A DNA stretch of 64,000 nucleotides from Polytrichum commune. Its lineage: Eukaryota; Streptophyta; Polytrichopsida; Polytrichales; Polytrichaceae. Where the stretch lies: positions 2,666,001 through 2,730,000 of the forward strand of contig OX485809.1 of NCBI GenBank assembly GCA_950295325.1, written 5' to 3'. Below the pieces are notes generated by a model that saw only the letters and a program-made list of their open reading frames with translations, ran no database searches and was not told the DNA's origin. Positions 12,051 through 61,400 of the stretch are shown one piece after another (within the stretch, counting starts at the first letter, position 1; every line of letters begins with the position of its first letter). The translations under genes and the position numbers were made by a program.

Positions 12051-12732
12051 TTCTTTTTTGAGGGGGGGGGATTGGAAGAACTTTGTTATTTGCGGCATGT
12101 GGTTTTGGGAATATTTATTATATAACCACTTTACTTTGTATGTGGTGAGCGTAGCGGTAATGTTGCCTCAGGTGGTCATACATGTGGGTTTCGGTACCTT
12201 GAATTTGAATAGTTGGTTGGTTGGTGCTTATGTCTTTATCTAGGTTGCATTGTTGTGTTCTTTGTGTGAGGTTTGTGATTGTGAGTGATGGTCTTATGAA
12301 CCTTTTATCTTTGGATTGGGTGTGATTCATGCATTCTTCGTATGTCTTTGGTGTACACTGCGTATGCATTTGGTTGATGTGATTGTTGAGTAGGAGTAGG
12401 TTATAGTCTAGTAGTATGTTATCTTGGTGAAAGAAGTTTGGCTTCTTCTCTCCATTCTTGAGTAGTGGCTTGTCGGGTGCTCCATTGGCATGGATAGTAA
12501 TTTTTGCTAGTCTTTTTTGGCGACTGTTTTGGTTTGGGTAATTCTTTGGAATCTTATACAAGCTATGAGTCGTGTTGGTACAATTATTTGTAGTGTGACA
12601 AGCGATATTTATGTAGGGAGTTGTTGTAGATAAATTACTTGATAACAATTATGTTTGTGAAGAATGTACATAATTTAAGGTTTACTTTGAGATCATGCTT
12701 CAAAGTCTTTGATGGAATCATTTGCATTGTTT

Positions 12733-22733: not shown

Positions 22734-24142
22734 AATGCCCAGTTGGCTTGTACGATGGGAAAACATAAAAGGGCTCAGTAGCAATGAATGGCTGATGTGC
22801 CTTGGCTAGTTGACTTCAACTTGAGCGTAGTTTTCAAGTTTGTTTATTAGAGGACAGTCAACGGAGTCGACGTGGTTCTAATCTAACCCAGGGCCCATAT
22901 CGAGGATGCAAACTTGGCTTCAATGGCACTTCCTGCTCAAACTAACAATAAGTTCAATTTTTTTAACACTTTTGTGCGACATCTTCGGGTTCATGGTGGG
23001 CCTCTTGAACTTTTGAGGGTTAGTATGATGCTTAGATGACATGTTATGGGTTGACATATCCGACGAATAAGTTGAAAAAGTGATGGTCTTAATCTTTCAC
23101 CATGTGTCTTACTCGTTGACTTATGTCTCGAGGGTAGACTAGTAGTTTTGGGATTCCCTTATTAATGTAGAGTCAACTGATAGTCCACCTACACCTACTG
23201 GATGTGGACCACCAATGAATGGGTTCTACCGACACTAGTTACATCCTCTGGCTCTCACTAACCAAAGTGAAGCTAAAAGTGGCCCCACGCCATTAAGTGT
23301 GACCATGCGATGAGTGCACATGGTTCTATTCTAATGATGTCCATATTGAGGATCCATGGGTCAACATTTTCTAATAACAACAACAACAACAACAACAATG
23401 ATCTTTTACACCTTTGCATGGCATCTCCATGTCTATGGTAGGATTCCTGGATCTTTAGGGGTGAAGAAGATCCGCATTCATCCGCTGACTAAAGTCTCAC
23501 ACCATATATATACAATCCTAGTGTATATATATATCACCATTGTTACATATAATTTTGTGTTTCACTGCCTTGTTGTGGTAGCTCTTGTTGAATATAATTT
23601 GAACTATCAAGAGTATAGTCAAATGAACACACATGTTTATTTTCTACCCTTTCATGTATTGAGGGGTCCTTTGGGTCTCTAACATTTTCAGTCAAAGTTA
23701 ATAATAAGTAACCTTACTAACACTTTTTATGACATTTTGCATAACATTACGTAGTAATGCTAGTAGGGTACCCTTTGAGTACCCACAATATTACCTCAAC
23801 AAGAAGGGAAAAGTTTGCAAAGCAAGGTTGAATGAATGGGGAATTAATTAATTAAATAAAAAAATTCAAAAATTCAAAAAGGTGTTCAACATAGATCCAA
23901 TGTGGATTTCAGAAGACTTTTTCAAAATGTACAACTATCTTTTTGACCCCGCCAATTGTTCCCATTGCTTTAGGTATTTAGATTTGTTTAGATCCTACTT
24001 TAACCTATATTAGAACCTTTACCGCCACTTGACATTAGTATTGTCTTAGAAACCAACATAAGTAATCCTTAGTAGTGAAAGCAATTACCCAACTAGATTA
24101 AAATTAGTTTGAAGAAAACTTAAAGGTAGTGTCACCTTTGCT
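22734..24142. repeat. Intergenic DNA with a locally repeated segment
   Basis: Segments at about 22850-23110, 23300-23700 and 24260-24500 share words in the same order (ggttcta.tctaa, cat.tcgaggat, gtctcacaccat, ttacatataatt.tgtgt), suggesting two or three copies of one repeat. An (AAC)n run lies at 23376-23398. No gene. Confidence 0.5.
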
Positions 24143-51182: not shown

Positions 51183-51187
51183 GCCCT

Positions 51188-51287
51188 ACTCAAATTGCCA
51201 TAACTCCTAACTCACACCTCCGATTGAGGTGTTTTTGAGCATTCTAGAATCAACACGCCATGAGCTACGCATAGCTATGGCCTTACC
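51188..51287 (+). repeat. Right part of the split 180-bp repeat
   Basis: Contains ccataactcctaactcacacc, a ttgagcattctagaatca block and catgagctacgcatagc; partner of 51915-52020 in inverse. Confidence 0.8.
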
Positions 51288-51451
51288 TTCATGCTATAAT
51301 TATTTTGGTAGTTCTTGATTATTTATTTTGAAAATTTTGGGTGATAAATGAGTAGTTTCAATCCTTGACCCGTATTTGAGAAGAAGGTGCACCAAATCCA
51401 AGAAATGTCTGGTATTGTGAATAGCCATGGATTGGCATGAGCAAAGTAATA

Positions 51452-51671
51452 CTCCCTCTGTTTCAAAATAAAATTGTGGTTTCTATTTCAGTGCGGGATT
51501 AAGAACAGTGACCGGATTTGAACCACAATGCGCTTTTTAACCAAAATTGGGAGTTGCCGAAAAGTTGCCGACGTCTCTGTCATGCCCGGAGGAGGTCCGT
51601 AACGAAACCATGGTTTTATTCTGGCACGGAGTTTATGCAGAAACCATGGTTTTATTGTGAAACAGAGGGAG
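51452..51671. mobile_element. Stowaway-like MITE, copy 2 (220 bp)
   Basis: Terminal inverted repeats ctccctctgtttcaaaataaaa and the complement ctccctctgtttcacaataaaa (one mismatch) with TA on both sides (51450-51451, 51672-51673). An internal second copy of aaaccatggttttatt lies next to the right end. Its ends are better preserved than at 9643-10053, so it is probably younger. Confidence 0.9.
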
Positions 51672-51914
51672 TAAGTTACAATTATAGTCTTTCATAGCAA
51701 AGGACAAAGCCTCACGGTTCTACCGTTTTCTTGTTTATAATTTGTCGCGCACCTCTCCATGAGGAGTGCCCAAAACACCATGGGCACAAGGGGGACCCCG
51801 GAGTGACACCCGGGACTTGTGGCGCCGTTGGTGAGAGGGCCCAAGTGATCCTAGTGTGGGCGAGGGCCCGGGCGTTGGAAACGCCTCCCACCCACGGAGA
51901 CTAGGAGGCACAAG

Positions 51915-52094
51915 GGTAAGGCCATGAGCTATGCCTAGCTCATGGCGTGGTGATTCTAGAATGCTCAAGAACACCTCGGAGGTGTGAGCTAGGAGTTATG
52001 GCATTTTGAGTGGGGCGCTGTCCCGGGACAACGCCTTGGTACAGCAGTGCCTAGGAGTGATTCCCGGGACTGCCAAGGTTCAAACATGCATAAC
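51915..52094 (-). repeat. Intact inverted copy of the 180-bp repeat
   Basis: The reverse complement reads gttatgcatg, ccttggcagtcccggg, ctgtaccaaggcg, gggacagcgccccactc and ccataactcctagctcac. It lacks the LTR found in the plus-strand copy and so provides the empty site. Confidence 0.8.
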
Positions 52095-53183
52095 TTCGTC
52101 AATACTTGCCTGAATGGGGCAAGTGAGGAGTCCATCGGCATCTACGTGAAGCGTAAATGAAGATGGAGTGGTTGCTTGTTAGCATCAGACATCATACAAG
52201 GAAGTTATGATGGTTTGAAGCTGCTGGGGGCTTCTAGGCCCAGCGGCTAAAGGAAAATGTCTACTTGGCCCCAACTCTTGGTAGAGAGAGAAAAGGTTTC
52301 TTGACGGTGGGATAGGGGCCCCGCGTAGAATCATAGAGGCTTATATGGGCGAGGTGGTGTGGCCTCACCCACCCGAGGCCGAACGGCACGGCCTCCATGG
52401 GCATTGGCCCAATGTGAGGCCATAGTTGCTTAGCATGGTTCAGGTTGTTGTAGTGTTGCTCCGGCAACGCGATGATCAACATAAGATTGGACTTCCATGG
52501 ATGGAAGTCCACATCTAGGAATGGATTACCGATTAAGGGGTGAGTCCCGAAAGCAAAGTAGGAGGGTTGATTCCCCTCTTATGAACTATAAGGTCCGGGG
52601 TAGGAGGAGCAAACCATTAGCATGGCGTTATGCGAAGGGTTAGCACTCGTAACCTTTGCTAGAAAGGGAAATTGGCAAGATTTTTAAGGGGACTAGCAAG
52701 GGTTGCGACACAAAGTGGTTAGGAAATTTGCTCTTGAAACAAAGAAGTTGATGCATAGTCTCTGTCCTCCAAACAGAGCCAAAAAACTCAAAGTGGTTTT
52801 AGACTCATGGCACACATGTAAGGGAGTCTGATGTCTACAAGGGTATTGTTAAGAATGCTATGAGGGTATGTGGACACTACTAACTATGTGTTAGGCTCCC
52901 ACAACTCGTAATCCATTTACTTGAGTTGGTTATTAATCATAATTGATTACTCAACCAAGAGCCACATGGTTATTAGAACTTGTCACAATATCATCCATAA
53001 TTCATAGATTTTGTCAATGAGTTGATTGATCGTGTAAGATAATCACTCAAGTACGTGAATGACTTGCTGCCCTCAACTAATAATCCACTCTCCTCTCATT
53101 GCTTATCTAGTTCATATCCAGAGGATACCAAATCTCATTGACAACACACAACAATTCGTTTAGAGTCTTCGATTCTCTTTAGT
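52095..53183. other. GC-richer intergenic DNA, then the LINE 5' leader
   Basis: 52100-52750 has balanced composition, a perfect 10-bp hairpin (tggacttcca with its complement around 52488-52511) and an unclassified 83-codon minus frame at 52261-52512. 52750-53183 is AT-rich and probably includes the LINE 5' UTR, but its start is not marked by any duplication I can see. Confidence 0.4.
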
Positions 53184-56100
53184 ATGGATTCTAATTCATC
53201 GATACTGAGACTGAGTTCCGGCGGGGGCTCCGCGATGGGCGGACCAAGCTCAGACACAGTGGTAGACACAAACAACAGATCGCTAGCAGACTGCCGAAGG
53301 CAGCAACAAGGAGGCCACAGCGACCCCCGATTGACCAACACATTGCAGACAGACAGCAACCCAAGCAGTAAATCGTTCGTAGACTGCCGAAGGCAGCATC
53401 ACGGAGACCACAGAGACCCCCGAGTGAACAACACATCGCAGATACTGAGATCTAACCGAACACCTGCATGCCGAAATGAGCAAAACAGACACCCTCCAAC
53501 AGACACCCGATGCTGCACTGATCGACACCAAATCACTACAACATATTTACATCAAGAAGAAGGGCCCGATGAAGAACCTACACAAGACAAGAAGCCGCAA
53601 CCAGATCCAAGCACGGAAGGTAGAAGAAGGAAGCCACCGCAAACTATCAACACTAGGGTTTCCTCCCTGTTTATTCAATGGGTGCTTATCAACACCATTA
53701 CAATGTGCACATCTGCACACCTCACTGCCCTCTCAATCCCCCTCCACACTCTCCACTCACAAAGCTACATCCCACCCAAGCTACCACCCGAAGTCTACCC
53801 ACCAAGCTCTTCTCTCTCCACACCCACTTCAACAAACCACAACCCACCAATACCACACCTCTCACTCCAGCATTGCTCTACATCTCTACTCCACAATGTA
53901 AATCCCCACACCGATCCGCTCCCACAAGCCGAGAGCTCGCCCGCGCCAATGGCACCCACACAGCACCACCACACAACAGTAAGTATAAAAACTTGCACCT
54001 ACCAGCAATCAACTACATACTCCAACACAACCCAAAAATCCCACTCCACAACAATTATAAGCTTACCTCCGAAAAGAAGATGCCGATCCCGCACTCCACA
54101 CGCGATTGCCCGCTCGCTCCCTCCATACCAGCACCCTACGACCACGTACATCCCCCACCCACCACACAGAAAAGTATCCCCCACACAGACAAGCCGCCGA
54201 ACACATCATACTGCCCTCAAGCTTCCCCTCCCACACACCCAGATCCAACACACCCCCACAAGCAACCCACACTCACTTACCCCAAAAACAGACAATCCCA
54301 ACCCCAGCCCCAATGCACGCCGACCCCCTGACCCCCACTTGCACCCACCAGCTCCCGAACGGCACCCAATCCAGGATCGCCTCCCCCAAAAATACAAGCG
54401 CCAGAACACTCTCCAAGCACGATCCAGCCACGATACCCACTCAGACAAAGCAGACCCCCAACTTAGCCCCCTCCCTCTACACCACTTCACAAAAATACAC
54501 AACAATAGCAACAACAGACAGGCAATCACCTCCCCCCTAAACCTCACCCTCTACCCAACACAATACCTTCAAATACCACCCCAAACTCCATCTCTCAACA
54601 CCCACAACTCACCTCTCCACACTCACACCTCCTCCCTCTCACAACACCCTCCAATGGCCGCCCACACTACCTCCTTCCCCACTGACCAGGATAGAACTAG
54701 ACATGCGACACAGGACCAACAGGATCGCCCACACAACGCCCCCACTGCAGAATTCGAAGCCGCAGCTCCAGGGCAGGTAGTCGAAGGACGTATGGAGCAG
54801 AGCGAAGACGGCTACAGAACCAGGGGCCCAACCAGGAGCGAGAAGCCGACCCCGAAGTCGACACCGAAGGCGGACATGTCGACAGGAGCCTCCCAGGGCA
54901 CCGGGAAAACGGGCCAGCGGAGGGACGGAGGCAGAGACCGTCCCAACCAGCAAGGCCCCGGACCTGCCACACGGGCCCAACTCCGAACCAGTTCACTCAG
55001 CAGCAGAGCCCGAACAGAGACCAGCAGAAGAAGCATTGGGAGACGGAGGGCCCTAATCCAAACATATAGTGATGAGGAGGACGACCCAGCTGCTCCACTA
55101 GCCAACCAACTAGCACCACTAAGGGTACAAGCCACACCTTCTCATGATTTAGACATAGACATGCAACTTGTGGATGTGTCCCCCGAACACGGCGGTAGCT
55201 CACTTCACTTCTCCACTTCGCATGATGACTCCCGAGCCGCACCCCACCAAGCCGTCATGTCTATCTCTCAACTAGATGCTATCAATTTAGCGGATAACAC
55301 ACTTACACCTCCCACTAGGAAGGAGCTCGCCATAGACACCCAAAGTGCCAAGAGAAGGAGGAGCGAGGCGGGAAGGCAAGCTACCCACACCAACACCAAC
55401 TCAACTCCGTGCACGAAGTCCAAGGAAGACATTCCAAGCATCGACATCGTTGCACACATGTGGCTCGGTTTCTCCATACATGAGGACATGGCCATGAAGG
55501 AAGGTAAAGAAATCATCCGTGAACACCGCACCAACGAAGAATTTGCACAACTTGGGACTCCTACAAGGGAAGTCATCGACTTCAAGACACTTCGTAGGGC
55601 ATTTCCAAGGGTACCACAAACTCTATACCCAAATGAGAGGCCGGACGCGGTTCCCGGCAATCACCTCCACTTTACCCAAATCCCGAGGCAAGAGAGAACC
55701 GACCCCATCACCGGCCTCTCCGAAGGCTTCCACATCACAATTCGATACGATCACGGATTCAAAGGCGTCACTAGGCAAGAAGCAAGAGGAGCTTGTGTGG
55801 AGAGGCTTCGCCAAATGGACATCCCACTTGGCACCACCTACTCCAACCCAATTGACATCGGCATCAACGCGGTCACCAAGAATTGGGCGGGGTTCATAAA
55901 GGTACACCTAAAGAACCCACAACTAGATGGTTTGTCACTCCTTAAGGGTAATAGAGCATTTGTCATGCAAATGGAAGATGGAGAGAAAGTGATAGGCAAA
56001 ATAGAAAAAGGTTACGAATTAGCTACTAAAGCCCGCAATCTCCGGTTGCACCTTAAGGGTGAAACCCTCCGTCATGAAAATGCTTCCACCATCTTTGAGT

Positions 56101-57059
56101 GTCTAGTGCAAAATAGTTACTATAATGGACACCAACACGAGTTCATGGGTCTCACAAAACCGGAATTCGATAAGAATTTCGCGTTTCTTACCCTTACAAC
56201 GGAGGAGGCTAGAGATGTGGTCCTCAAGGAAGGCCTTCATTACAACAACGAGAGGTTGCAAGTAAGCATCACCCGCGACCGGACCGGTGCTAACCCCTCG
56301 GAACTCCGAATTAGCACTACTCTAGTAGCTAACAACTTACCACAACGGGAGCCACAAGCCGCCATCACCAAAGCCCTCAAACAAATCTTTGGAGAAGACA
56401 ACATCGTGGGCTTTAGTTTTGGACACAACAATCAAGACATCACCAACAAGCACGCGGGGTGGTGCCACATACAATGCTTAAATACCGCGGTCTACACCGA
56501 GTGGATCCACAAGTCTACCATCATCCTAGGGCGTCGCATCGACTTCATCCCACATCGAGGAAGCATCGACGGATCGGACCCAAACAAGACGGCCATCCGA
56601 CTTGCCCAAGCTCCCGCACGCGAAGCCATCGCCGACAAAATTCAAGCAATGGGTAATGCCACGAACACGAACCCACTTCTCACCGAGAAGTACCTAACAA
56701 CTTCCATAAAGGAACTTGAGGAGAAACTCGATGAGAAGTTTGGAACACTCACTACCTCCATCAACCACCACACGGACCGACGACACGACGCAACCACAAC
56801 AACCCTCACCAATCACTCCAACAACTTGCACGCACTCCTTGGAACAATAGCTCTTGAATTCCAACAATCCAACATTCGAATGCAAGGCATCATCAACGGA
56901 CTCTCCACCGTCGCCCCGGACATGCTCCTTAGAAATGCCCCACCACCAACAGCACACGGCCCGCACACGACCGCCTCACCACTACCACTTCAAGCGCCAC
57001 CGGGCTTCAACGGCAACCCACAAATGTACCATCAAGGATCACACACATTTAATGGATAG
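53184..57059 (+). CDS. LINE ORF1 protein, RRM-type (up to 1291 aa)
   Basis: ORF1 proteins of LINEs bind the element's RNA and form the ribonucleoprotein needed for retrotransposition. Residues 1 to about 490 are Pro/Thr/His/Ser-rich and low-complexity, with an in-frame 93-bp duplication (residues about 34-94, each with DCRRQ). This part may not be translated: it is A/C-rich and other frames are also open. A later Met at 54654 is an alternative start, after which composition becomes normal. A basic segment (SAKRRRSEAGR) precedes the folded part. Residues about 975-1030 (FAFLTLTTEEARDVV) and 1043-1135 (TTLVANNLP, HAGWCHIQC, RRIDFIPH) look like two RRM folds. Residues 1173-1246 are helical (ELEEKLDEKFGTL) and could oligomerise. 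No CCHC zinc knuckle is seen. Its TAG overlaps the ORF2 ATG. Confidence 0.75.
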   Translation: MDSNSSILRLSSGGGSAMGGPSSDTVVDTNNRSLADCRRQQQGGHSDPRLTNTLQTDSNPSSKSFVDCRRQHHGDHRDPRVNNTSQILRSNRTPACRNEQNRHPPTDTRCCTDRHQITTTYLHQEEGPDEEPTQDKKPQPDPSTEGRRRKPPQTINTRVSSLFIQWVLINTITMCTSAHLTALSIPLHTLHSQSYIPPKLPPEVYPPSSSLSTPTSTNHNPPIPHLSLQHCSTSLLHNVNPHTDPLPQAESSPAPMAPTQHHHTTVSIKTCTYQQSTTYSNTTQKSHSTTIISLPPKRRCRSRTPHAIARSLPPYQHPTTTYIPHPPHRKVSPTQTSRRTHHTALKLPLPHTQIQHTPTSNPHSLTPKTDNPNPSPNARRPPDPHLHPPAPERHPIQDRLPQKYKRQNTLQARSSHDTHSDKADPQLSPLPLHHFTKIHNNSNNRQAITSPLNLTLYPTQYLQIPPQTPSLNTHNSPLHTHTSSLSQHPPMAAHTTSFPTDQDRTRHATQDQQDRPHNAPTAEFEAAAPGQVVEGRMEQSEDGYRTRGPTRSEKPTPKSTPKADMSTGASQGTGKTGQRRDGGRDRPNQQGPGPATRAQLRTSSLSSRARTETSRRSIGRRRALIQTYSDEEDDPAAPLANQLAPLRVQATPSHDLDIDMQLVDVSPEHGGSSLHFSTSHDDSRAAPHQAVMSISQLDAINLADNTLTPPTRKELAIDTQSAKRRRSEAGRQATHTNTNSTPCTKSKEDIPSIDIVAHMWLGFSIHEDMAMKEGKEIIREHRTNEEFAQLGTPTREVIDFKTLRRAFPRVPQTLYPNERPDAVPGNHLHFTQIPRQERTDPITGLSEGFHITIRYDHGFKGVTRQEARGACVERLRQMDIPLGTTYSNPIDIGINAVTKNWAGFIKVHLKNPQLDGLSLLKGNRAFVMQMEDGEKVIGKIEKGYELATKARNLRLHLKGETLRHENASTIFECLVQNSYYNGHQHEFMGLTKPEFDKNFAFLTLTTEEARDVVLKEGLHYNNERLQVSITRDRTGANPSELRISTTLVANNLPQREPQAAITKALKQIFGEDNIVGFSFGHNNQDITNKHAGWCHIQCLNTAVYTEWIHKSTIILGRRIDFIPHRGSIDGSDPNKTAIRLAQAPAREAIADKIQAMGNATNTNPLLTEKYLTTSIKELEEKLDEKFGTLTTSINHHTDRRHDATTTTLTNHSNNLHALLGTIALEFQQSNIRMQGIINGLSTVAPDMLLRNAPPPTAHGPHTTASPLPLQAPPGFNGNPQMYHQGSHTFNG
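53289..53474 (+). repeat. In-frame 93-bp tandem duplication in ORF1
   Basis: gactgccgaaggcagca begins at 53289 and again at 53382. The following blocks, cacagcgacccccgattgac and cacagagacccccgagtgaa, match. The period is exactly 31 codons, so the frame is kept. Confidence 0.85.
57052..57059 (+). promoter_or_regulatory. Stop-start overlap between LINE ORF1 and ORF2
   Basis: ATGGATAG: the ORF2 ATG (57052-57054) precedes the ORF1 stop TAG (57057-57059) by two bases, in the +1 frame. Such overlaps permit termination-reinitiation, a mechanism shown for some insect LINEs. An upstream ATG in the ORF2 frame at 56854 exists, but lies within the ORF1 coding region. Confidence 0.6.
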
Positions 57060-58431
57060 TACCCACATAGCATACCATAAATGTTTCATTTATGCTATAT
57101 GTTTTATTTTCTTCTCTTCTCCCAATAAAGCATTCAAGACATTCACACTAGCACAAAGGCTCATAAATATTGTATACACCCTCTTACACTACACTATTAA
57201 CAATAAATATAACAAACTACCACAATCACCACACACAACCAACCCACCCACATACACTAAAAACCATCTACCTTACCACTATAACCTCCTAGAAAAACCC
57301 CACCAAAGGAAGACCTCACACCCCCACCCGAAACCATACCCCTCACTAAGAGGACAAAAACCAACTAGCATCATAATCCTAATATGGCTAGCCTATCTCC
57401 CTACCACCAACCAAACAAACCATATCTATCACCCCCCATATGCCCCCCACCCCCACACCCACATAGATCCCTCACAACACAAATTCCCACCCAACACAAT
57501 ACCATACACAAAACACACACAAAACCATACACATATAATCCCCCGCCCTACCTCAACACACCAAACACCACACTACTATACCAACCCCCACATCGCACAA
57601 CAATCATACACATACACCACACATACAACTAGTCACAAAAGAAGCACCTCGCACACATATCCCACATACAAACACATCCACAATGCATACACTACCCACT
57701 ACAACACATCCCCATCAATCCCCCCAACCAACATGCTAAACCCCATCCACACCCCAACCCACCAATCACAAGACCACCTAAAGAAACTAACAATACCTCG
57801 CCCAACATACCTAATGAACAGATGCCCCCTAGGAAACCACAAATGGTTCCTCCCCCTTATAGGATATATTGTTTTCCTACTACATAACAAAACACTCCCA
57901 CCCCCTAAACAAAACAAGCTAACATCCAACAAGTACCCACAATCACACGCACCTACTCAAACCAAAATATACCACACCTACACCACACTAGTAGTCCTAA
58001 CCATAATAATAACATATACACACACACACACCCTAACCTCGTACAAATCCCCCATACCCACATCATACCACCGCTCTACCCAAATATACAATCACAAATC
58101 CACCATCACTTCCACACACCAAGACCACACACATAACCATAACACACACGACCCCCCAAAATACCAAACCCAACACAAAATAAACACACCAATGCTACCC
58201 ATAATCACCACAAGCCTCATAGGCCACATACAACACATTACACACTTACACCTTAAAACCCCAAAAACAATAAACATACACTATTACAGTTGGAATAACT
58301 CCACACTCATCATCCTAAGTGGAGATGTAAAACCCAATCCGGGCCCACTCGCACACATCCTTGACAACCTTCCTTGCGAATACACACAACGCCAAAAAAA
58401 AATATTTCATACCAAACACAATAACCCTTAA
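57052..58431 (+). CDS. LINE ORF2, N-terminal part, ending in a 2A-like motif
   Basis: 459 codons from the overlapping ATG to a TAA at 58429-58431. The first ~420 residues are Thr/His/Pro/Asn/Tyr-rich with a few hydrophobic stretches (CFIYAICFIFF near the start, FLPLIGYIVFLL, VVLTIIITY); I recognise no domain. Residues 422-432 are LSGDVKPNPGP, a 2A-like sequence preceded by the hydrophobic LII. 2A sequences make the ribosome skip the Gly-Pro bond, so translation would give a 431-residue peptide and a downstream protein starting with Pro. Only 27 residues follow before the stop. The next frame (+1) is open from 58331 and carries the enzymes, so ORF2 is probably one protein in an active copy, broken here by one base near the nine-A run at 58394-58402. 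The coding strand is strongly A/C-rich and G-poor. Confidence 0.65.
   Translation: MDSTHIAYHKCFIYAICFIFFSSPNKAFKTFTLAQRLINIVYTLLHYTINNKYNKLPQSPHTTNPPTYTKNHLPYHYNLLEKPHQRKTSHPHPKPYPSLRGQKPTSIIILIWLAYLPTTNQTNHIYHPPYAPHPHTHIDPSQHKFPPNTIPYTKHTQNHTHIIPRPTSTHQTPHYYTNPHIAQQSYTYTTHTTSHKRSTSHTYPTYKHIHNAYTTHYNTSPSIPPTNMLNPIHTPTHQSQDHLKKLTIPRPTYLMNRCPLGNHKWFLPLIGYIVFLLHNKTLPPPKQNKLTSNKYPQSHAPTQTKIYHTYTTLVVLTIIITYTHTHTLTSYKSPIPTSYHRSTQIYNHKSTITSTHQDHTHNHNTHDPPKYQTQHKINTPMLPIITTSLIGHIQHITHLHLKTPKTINIHYYSWNNSTLIILSGDVKPNPGPLAHILDNLPCEYTQRQKKIFHTKHNNP
58318..58347 (+). other. 2A-like ribosome-skipping motif (SGDVKPNPGP)
   Basis: Codons for S-G-D-V-K-P-N-P-G-P; the skip would be between Gly (58342-58344) and Pro (58345-58347). 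Core residues D, N, P, G and P match the established D-x-E-x-NPGP consensus except that Lys replaces Glu. 2A-like motifs N-terminal to the endonuclease are known in trypanosome and several animal non-LTR elements. Confidence 0.75.
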
Positions 58432-61400
58432 ACATCAATATACCCACCTAGCAGAACTATTTAAACCCTACCTATCTCTCCAGACATATAGCATCCAAAA
58501 TCAAGATTTACCCCACCTACGCAACCAAAGTTTGGCACATGCAACATTCCCCATCCACTTCCAAATCTACGCATTCATCATAACATATAGCCCAATCCCA
58601 CAAACATGTAACCAATTAATGGCCGAAAACATAGATCAAGATTGCCTTACCATCCTACAAAGACTTCAACAACTCCCACCTAGAACATACCTAAGAAAAT
58701 ACCCAATCACCACTCAACCCTCTCATAACATAACACCAACCACCATAATACAAGCATATACACACATTAATGAGAAAATAGCCAAAGGAGAAATACTAAC
58801 CATAACCAATCTACAAACAGAACTACCTAACCTCCCTCAAAAAATAACCCAAGAACTAATCAAATGTACACAACAAGTAAGGGGATACACCCCCAATACA
58901 AACCCTAACACCACTAACCATACACAAACTAATACCACTAGTGAAGCCAACCCCCAAGCCACTACCCTAAGAATCATCACTTGGAATACCGGATGCATCA
59001 GCTCTAGCCTACCCGGCATACAAGAACTCACACGAACATTACATACAGATCCACACATAATACTCATACAAGAAACTAAACTACACAAACTTAAATCCAC
59101 AACATACATCGACCGCAAATTTCAAAACTATAAAATCATTTATAACAACTCCAACAATGAAACACAAACACAAAATAGATACTCAGGACCTACCCAAGCC
59201 CGAGGCGGCATATTGGCCATGATACCCAAAAACATCTACACAAACGAAAATATTACCAAAATACCCACCCCTAGCCCCATATCACCATACCTCCAAATCA
59301 TAGTAATTAATAACAAACCACTCACACCAATAACTATCATAAATATGTATATGCCCACCCACCCTCAAGACACACACCTCATAAGTGAGATACAAAACCA
59401 AATCCAACTCCTAATCACACAACACCCTAACCATCAAGTTATCCTAGCCGGAGACTTTAACCGGGACATACTACTTAAAGGAAGAACATCCAACGGGACA
59501 CACCTCCCCCCTAACCAAAATGACCTCGAATGGGCCCACTTCACAAATAACATAGGCCTTATCACAATCAACAACCAACACAACCACACAAGACAAGGCG
59601 GATTAAACTACACTTCAACAAGCCACATAGATGGCTTTTACTCCAACCTTCCCAACCATAACCACCTAACCTGCTACACACTAGACAAACTCAACCAAAA
59701 TTCCGACCACTACCCGGTCCAACTAAACCTCCACCCAAATAGCATTGTCATCAAAGAACCACACCCCCACACAAGCAATCCCCGAATCACATACCCCATC
59801 CACCCCGCCAACTTACAAAAACTCCAAACAATCTTCATGGAAACACAAAGCCTAACAATAGCCACATTAACAACCACACTACAACAAGAACAACTCACCC
59901 ACACACAATGGGAAAACGCACAAAACACATTTCAAGAAATCATTAATTCCCTTAGTACATGCATTGAGCAAACATGTATGACACACCCCAAACCCCCACT
60001 ACCCAATAGAGTAAAAACGCAAGGTGGATTCCTCCCTAGGACACAACAAAAACTATGGAAACATCAACTAAAAATATACCATGGAGCCCGCAAAGCCATC
60101 CACGCCGCATGTCAGAACCCCCACGCACACCTTCACACCCACCCGAACATCAAAGCCCTACAACTCATAAAAAACATCAATATACCACCTCTCCCCACAA
60201 ACCCCAAGGACCTCACAATATGGATTGAAGAAATAGCCAACATAGGTAAAAAAGCTAAAGATGAAGCCCACAAAATCACCGCCAAACAAACCGCAATAAA
60301 TTGCAAAACTGCCATTACAAAATACAGAGCACTATTAAACATAAAACCCAAAACAATACACAAAAAGATATTCCACCCCACAACTGCTAACTCCCTCGAC
60401 TGCCTAAAAACCCAACAAGGTCACATTCTTACAAACCCCAATGACATAGCCAAAGAGATACACCATATACAACAACTATCATTCCAAAGACAAGCACCCC
60501 TATGCGAAGACCCCACGGATCACCCAGTTACATGCCTATGCGCAGTACGCAAATATCCATGGCATACACACAATGGCATCATATTAGAAAAACGAGGCCC
60601 CCCAAATACACAAATATACAACCACTTCACTCGAGAAACATACGACACATGTATTCGGAGACTAACACGTGGAAAAACCCCCGGACCGGATAACATCCCC
60701 AATGACATAATTAAAATTTTACCATCACAATGGCACGATTTACTCTTCTTATTTTTCAAACAATGTTACAAACAAAAAGAAATACCAACCCACTGGAAGC
60801 ATAGTAAAACCATCCTATTGCACAAAAAAGACGATCCAACCCACATCGCCAACTACCGACCAATCGCCCTAGCCAATACAATATACAAACTCTACACAAG
60901 CACCCTCACAACACTACTCACGAGTTACGGAGAAACACATAGAATATTACATTTTAGTCAAGAGGGATTTAGGCCGCAAAGAAACACCTCAAAACAAATT
61001 CAAATGATCATTGCCACACTAGAAGACGCAAGACTTACCAACAAGGACATATACCTAACCTACATAGATTTCCGTAATGCCTTTGGATCCATTGACCACG
61101 CAAGGCTACTAGCTCTCATGGAAGACCTAGGATACCCTATGGACGCAATCGACATCGTTGGTAATATATACAAAAATTCAACCACCTCTTTTACCGGAAA
61201 CCATTTCGGTTCAACACCACCAATAGAAATTAGCCGTGGGACGATACAAGGGGACACCCTTAGTCCATACTTATTTATCATATTCATCGAACCACTTCTA
61301 AGATGGCTAGAAAAAGATAACTTAGGATACCATTTCAATACGTCATCTACCACATGTACTACAACCGCATACGCGGATGATTTGGCAATAATTACCGACA

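Follow-up and report, generated by a model that had tools for sequence, protein, structure and literature searches.

The window (the whole stretch of 64,000 nucleotides [nt] of Polytrichum commune DNA that was analyzed) ends within an APE-type LINE on the plus strand, in which endonuclease (EN; PF03372/PF14529) and reverse transcriptase (RT; PF00078) domains score above the Pfam cut-offs and an ORF1 frame lies upstream (Table 1). RNase H (PF00075), a domain that defines some LINE clades only, is above cut-off as well, both in this element and in relatives L087 and L088, and the RT of L087, with which a structure search was run, matches the R2 and LINE-1 structures. ORF2 runs out of the window to a stop at about position 65248. 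Pfam searches returned zero matches at E ≤ 0.01 for ORF1 and no match for the stretch in front of EN termed the D module here; predicted structures of the D and PCIF1-like pieces of the window were uninformative (mean pLDDT of 46.3 and 35.9, respectively). Elsewhere in the window, a minus-strand fragment at 12118-12648 resembles, by eye, the post-RT part of the same LINE family, and the region 51183-52016 contains long near-perfect inverted repeats (arms of 51 and 41 nt, 94% and 93%, about 650 to 750 nt apart), perhaps a MITE or foldback element.

Table 1. Features of the LINE at the end of the window (window coordinates)
Feature	Position	Strand	Remarks
ORF1 of LINE	53142..57059	+	stop-to-stop frame, 1305 aa
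ATGGATAG, ORF2 ATG (57052) overlapping ORF1 stop (57057-57059)	57052..57059	+	
ORF2 leader, open, ends with NPG of 2A	57052..58344	+	weakly constrained in relatives
Second start-like module in leader (MNRCPLGNHKWF...)	57814..57900	+	aligns with leader starts of other clade-A copies
2A-like sequence YYSWNNSTLIILSGDVKPNPGP	58282..58347	+	core GDVKPNPGP at 58321-58347
Predicted break in 2A		+	between G (58342-58344) and P (58345-58347)
A9 run, reading-frame break between 2A and EN	58394..58402	+	
Most of D module, frame 2	58391..58963	+	conserved ~190-aa stretch between 2A and EN
APE-type endonuclease, PF03372/PF14529	58976..59719	+	Pfam match
Reverse transcriptase, PF00078	60821..61627	+	Pfam match
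PCIF1-like domain, PF12237	63026..63283	+	25.8 bits, below cut-off of 31.1 in window copy
RNase H, PF00075	63815..64000	+	extends beyond window, to ~64234

The PCIF1-like domain (cap m6Am methyltransferase family), which these LINE ORF2s carry between RT and RNase H, exceeds the Pfam cut-off in L087 (residues 1871-1966, 40.4 bits) and L088 (residues 2171-2299, 47.0 bits). There were 697 candidates for it in the genome, and all 150 of the 150 scored were above the cut-off. Comparison with PDB entry 6irv gave an E value of 3.1e-4 and aligned the 'NPPF' of PCIF1 to 'HPPN', and the domain probably lacks a standard active site. Searches made for LINEs with a PCIF1-like domain turned up none.

The plus strand encodes LIILSGDVKPNPGP at 58306-58347, and in a six-frame translation of the whole window this is the sole NPGP with the context of a 2A (StopGo) sequence; a second NPGP, at 22885, is without such context. 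The leader of ORF2 starts with the ATG at 57052, ends with the NPG glycine (58344), and comprises 431 codons, the length given in an earlier note on this DNA. The hexapeptide context before the core is LIILSG in the window and LILLSG or LLKCG in relatives, and by-eye comparison places the LIILSG and KCG contexts close to the L-rich StopGo class that ends in (A/S/C)G before D. The core itself, GDVKPNPGP, has K for E at position 14 and so departs from (D/G/C/N)(V/I)ExNPGP. Many motif-bearing sequences are inactive, as a warning in excerpts of PMC11512398 states.

Sites of this type are abundant in the genome (407.8 Mb, seven large contigs). A DNA pattern for GDIxxNPGP gave 420 exact matches genome-wide and one for GDVxxNPGP gave 9 (429 in total), and control patterns, reversed or permuted in codon order, gave 0 matches each, on which grounds chance or composition was rejected as the source of the sites. 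A protein search with the 2A region found at least 149 matches, and since these were spread over all seven large contigs, contamination was rejected. Copy numbers from the protein searches are lower bounds because 150 of 487 candidates were scored with the 2A region and 150 of 1,098 with EN as the anchor. Contig C8 (146,561 bases) carries rbcL, trnR-CCG between rbcL and accD, and two strong PF00148 matches, which we take to be chlB and chlN; the plastids of flowering plants are not known to have chlB, chlN, or trnR-CCG, which places the host among the non-flowering land plants.

The EN-anchored search split the relatives into clade A (about 59% identity and up) and clade B (about 50%). Among the best 150 of the 1,098 candidates, 63 clade-A matches included the EN start, and in 52 of these a 2A was listed within 1.7 kb upstream; the 2A lay 636 to 666 nt from EN in 50 of the 52 and farther away in 2 (minus-strand distances are approximate and assume the match length), and two or more listed 2As were present in 15 of the 63. 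Six of the 11 clade-A matches without a listed 2A were examined as sequence: L068 and L069 each have an NPGP, L067 has NLGP, L070 has NPPP beside EN plus DDIQLNPGP upstream, and L071 and L072 have no 2A site in their sequence. Our early expectation that clade B would be without 2A proved wrong, since each of 14 sampled loci, picked for varied and mostly long frames, has one site (13 NPGP and 1 NLGP); the frame is open from 2A to EN in 13 of the 14, L079 having a stop between them. Forty of the roughly 102 remaining 2A regions were also examined (20 with the highest rank and about 20 with the lowest). The table of 2A cores has 101 rows, of which 2 are false (L003 at 2711 and L069 at 1011), and has L004 on the wrong strand; the search with the GDV pattern identified a GDVQPNPGP site at the place of L004. 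ORF2 frames of 2,625 aa were seen at three loci on three contigs (L087:1361-9238, L073, and C5:35.13 Mb), which suggests recent activity of a clade-B family.

The motif stands out in the pattern of constraint along ORF2, given here as dN/dS values that are pairwise sums without a tree. For clade B (14 copies, 91 pairs; L083 and L088 left out), the distal leader gave 0.76 and 1.02 and the 28 codons beside 2A gave 0.41; the 13 columns ahead of the core had 0.115, the core itself 0.097, and D 0.139, followed by 0.407 for the linker and 0.129 for the start of EN. In clade A (17 copies, with pS near saturation), they were 0.56 and 0.62 in the leader, 0.208 before the core, 0.080 in the core, and 0.352 in D. 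Purifying selection acts on the 2A motif in clade A as well as in clade B. Even in L088, whose leader is unrelated, HIILLRSGDIETNPGP, with the core and the L-rich residues before it, is kept.

The strongest rival to skipping is that GDIxxNPGP is an N-terminal structural motif of the D-EN protein, with the leader as its covalent N-terminal extension. The clade-B values fit this reading, the core being constrained much like D and EN (0.097 versus 0.139 and 0.129), and position 14 is more variable than in viral 2As. The clade-A values do not fit it, with a core (0.080) far more constrained than D (0.352); in ORFs with several 2As, moreover, the upstream ones keep NPGP despite the truncated D that follows them, and the residues conserved are those of the StopGo set (D, V/I, N, P, G, P) in an L-rich context. 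We regard a purely structural motif as unlikely.

The region upstream of the 2A appears to belong to ORF2. Twenty of the 22 clade-A entries scanned have an ATG(A/G)(A/T)TAG with 40 open codons behind it (L003 and L004 gave no match, L004 being on the wrong strand, and L025 was represented by an internal module), and in 11 of the 20, the window included, the TAG of the overlap can be seen to close an upstream frame of 69 codons or more. From this arrangement we infer that the overlap ATGGATAG is likely a termination-reinitiation site; according to the portion of PMC5972666 consulted, the LINE SART1 uses a stop-start overlap for reinitiation. The first 30 or so leader residues are alike across families (M-D/N-S ... 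HKW ... ICC ... YNK), with a dN/dS of 0.53 in this stretch versus 0.77 further on. A similar hydrophobic N terminus follows the overlapping ATG in clade-A copies; a signal-anchor reading was rejected, as the hydrophobic segment beats composition shuffles (P < 0.05) in 7 of 20 leaders only. In the clade-A loci measured, 165 to 423 codons separate the 2A from the likely start. A second start-like module further down the leader, seen in the window and L025, suggests stacked 5' ends.

Stop codons in the leader frame numbered 6 in clade A versus 251 and 202 in the other frames (20 loci, 600 nt upstream of the first 2A) and 22 in clade B versus 183 and 207 (16 loci), a contrast that is inflated because the loci were chosen partly for long frames. 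With few in-frame stops and a high distal dN/dS, the leader looks translated but weakly kept in sequence; since clade-A leaders show some constraint (0.56 to 0.62), they may have a function. The leader of L087 has two ASAYRPRH-containing stretches upstream of its 2A, possibly copies of one module, the first of which would have lost its 2A. An alternative is that the EN-RT protein truly starts at or just after the 2A and that everything upstream is untranslated and open only through its A/C-richness, as might be read from the Met that directly follows NPGP in all 16 aligned clade-B copies and from a dN/dS close to 1 in the distal leader of clade B. Such an initiation is disfavored because constraint at the protein level begins 12 to 13 codons before the core; in addition, frame 0 is poor in stops compared with frames 1 and 2 of the same DNA (among loci selected in part for open frames), clade A has varying residues after NPGP (I, L, P, S, Q, or M), and the overlapping ATG at the ORF1 stop recurs. 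We consider this alternative quite improbable.

The earlier note had placed the motif in frame in ORF2, some 630 nt before the endonuclease. The position agrees with the Pfam endonuclease match, which starts about 630 nt 3' of NPGP; the statement about the frame is true of the family and false of the window copy, where the 2A lies in frame 1 (stop to stop, 56851-58431) and EN-RT-RNase H in frame 2 (from 58331). The frames are separated by a one-base difference in an A run, which is A9 in the window and A8 in L025 (C7:30.67 Mb), a copy that matches the window at 774 of 784 aligned nt and in which a single frame stays open from upstream of the 2A through EN. In L027 the run is interrupted (AAAAGCAA), and 2A and EN share one open frame in L025, L087, L088, and others. 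That near-identical L025 keeps one open frame marks the window copy, on sequence comparison, as a decayed member of an intact family; either mutation or assembly error may account for the A9 break. Programmed frameshifting at A9, which would join the 2A frame to the EN frame and for which the run does sit where the two open frames overlap, was rejected because its relatives are in frame with A8 (L025) or an interrupted run (L027).

Position 14 bears on how well individual sites might work. At the 420 GDI sites, E occupies it in 255, which thus have the core (D/G/C/N)(V/I)ExNPGP, Q or H in 143, and other residues in 22; the sampled clade-B loci (n = 14) have E in 13 and K in 1. GDVK occurs at three sites genome-wide (the window, L025, and the place of L027), so that K is rare. 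In the sections of PMC12846837 consulted, E at this position is almost invariant in viruses, H is >95% active in a natural context, Q was 26 to 56% active in earlier mutant tests, and K is outside the variants flagged, overrepresented, or tested. By these published activities, many of the plant sites should work in skipping, and the window copy, with its K and its broken frame, may have low activity. High activity of the window sequence is doubtful, as the earlier note suspected from K in place of E.

Some ORFs contain more than one 2A. Two or three cores lie in one uninterrupted frame at 11 of the 19 loci L008 to L026, which were chosen in part for visible 2A pairs; L023 has two cores in different frames. 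The 93 exact sites on contig C1 fall into 79 clusters, of which 67 are single sites, 10 are pairs, and 2 are triples. Gaps between neighboring 2As are divisible by three in 29 of 35 cases (C1 to C4, with C2 to C4 covered among the matches listed) and in 18 of 24 distinct gaps (binomial P = 3.6e-5). The stretches between serial 2As consist of truncated or shrunken D modules and new leaders, and some are mosaics of the two clades. The piece that follows the middle 2A of L018 resembles clade B (68.6% over 51 aa, versus 34.3% over 67 aa to clade A), whereas its final D belongs to clade A (60.1% over 198 aa versus 27.0%). L017 shows the opposite order, with a clade-A piece (93.5% over 31 aa) ahead of a final D that resembles clade B (49.5% over 198 aa versus 31.0%). 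Therefore, 5' parts have moved both ways between the clades. None of the 16 clade-B loci read has a second exact 2A core. E at position 14 was found in 1 of 26 tandem versus 53 of 67 single sites on C1 (Fisher P = 1e-11), a difference strongly confounded by clade; E-type tandems exist (L011 and L015), and we do not claim a causal link.

We favor, with a probability of roughly 75%, the reading that the motif is the StopGo/2A element of an APE-type LINE superfamily, at which the leader would be skipped off, and that serial 2As arose by 5' chimerism. Translation of ORF2 would start at the ATG overlapping the ORF1 stop, and ribosomes would read through the open, weakly constrained leader to reach a first 2A and, in some elements, a second or third; every NPG/P would release the nascent chain, with translation continuing at the proline. 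The predicted product is a D module-EN-RT-PCIF1-like-RNase H protein that starts with proline and is free of the leader. In-frame gain of the 5' part of another element (leader, 2A, and truncated D) would create a serial arrangement, the last 2A of which would still yield the normal EN-RT protein. The claim of the earlier note, that a plant LINE has a 2A-like motif ahead of its APE endonuclease, is well supported at the family level (52 of 63 in clade A and 14 of 14, one of them NLGP, in clade B), with purifying selection in both clades and E at 255 of 420 GDI sites; the check that it had proposed, whether other copies lack NPGP, was run on the relatives and did not overturn it.

More tentatively, the 2A might be a built-in 5' adaptor in this plant lineage. 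Because skipping would free EN-RT from anything translated before it, LINEs could swap and stack 5' ends (leader, 2A, and part of D) between distant clades without harm to the enzyme, and the stacks on C1, composed almost wholly of Q/H-type 2As, could compensate for weak sites by placing several of them in series. This is a possibility to which we give somewhat less than even odds. If true, it would account for the fast evolution of the leaders, for mosaic ORFs that hold two or three 2As, and for the in-frame distances between these 2As, and it would mean natural use of StopGo in a plant genetic element and serial use of 2A in a cellular one. It offers a testable reason for the presence of 2A in LINEs, namely, tolerance of 5' mosaicism.

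According to the parts of PMC12846837 consulted, StopGo is widespread among RNA viruses and rare in cellular genes, and no natural use by plant viruses was found; in plants it is treated as a tool in excerpts of PMC12371167. With at least 429 sites, many of which lie in long open frames, this plant genome would bring plants into the natural range of StopGo and would supply many natural variants at position 14 (E, Q, H, and K) and serial arrangements for work on the mechanism and for plant biotechnology. The literature searched, which did not extend to the survey Rao 2025 or to Odon 2013, Luke 2014, and Heras 2006, yielded no report of 2A in a plant retrotransposon, and the use of 2A in plant LINEs seems to be previously undescribed. 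APE-type LINEs with 2A occur in animals (Odon et al. 2013), and the L1Tc/Ingi elements of trypanosomes carry 2A (Heras et al. 2006), both as cited in partial texts of PMC4981915, PMC5972666, and PMC11512398. As far as those texts go, the plant family is like them in being an APE endonuclease-RT element with a D(V/I)ExNPGP-type sequence in an ORF and in having the 2A upstream of the endonuclease; it differs in its land-plant host, in the RNase H and PCIF1-like domains of ORF2, in the many elements with two or three 2As per ORF, and in Q or H for E at position 14 in 143 of 420 GDI sites. With the StopGo/2A sequences of RNA viruses, as covered in the excerpts of PMC12846837, it shares the core (D)(V/I)ExNPGP at 255 GDI sites and an L-rich hexapeptide ending in (A/S/C)G, whereas the window core has K for E and sits in a LINE. 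In sea urchins, the 2As of NLRs and LINEs double as signal sequences, and an urchin 2A sequence was shown to function in plant cells (excerpts of PMC4981915); compared with these, the plant 2A likewise lies beside hydrophobic sequence, but it is internal, 165 to 423 codons from the likely start in clade-A loci. Picornaviruses with multiple 2A(NPGP) sequences, in the part of PMC11512398 consulted, resemble the plant elements in having several 2As serially in one frame; in the plant elements, the pieces between the 2As are instead variable leaders and truncated D modules, and they lie in a retrotransposon.
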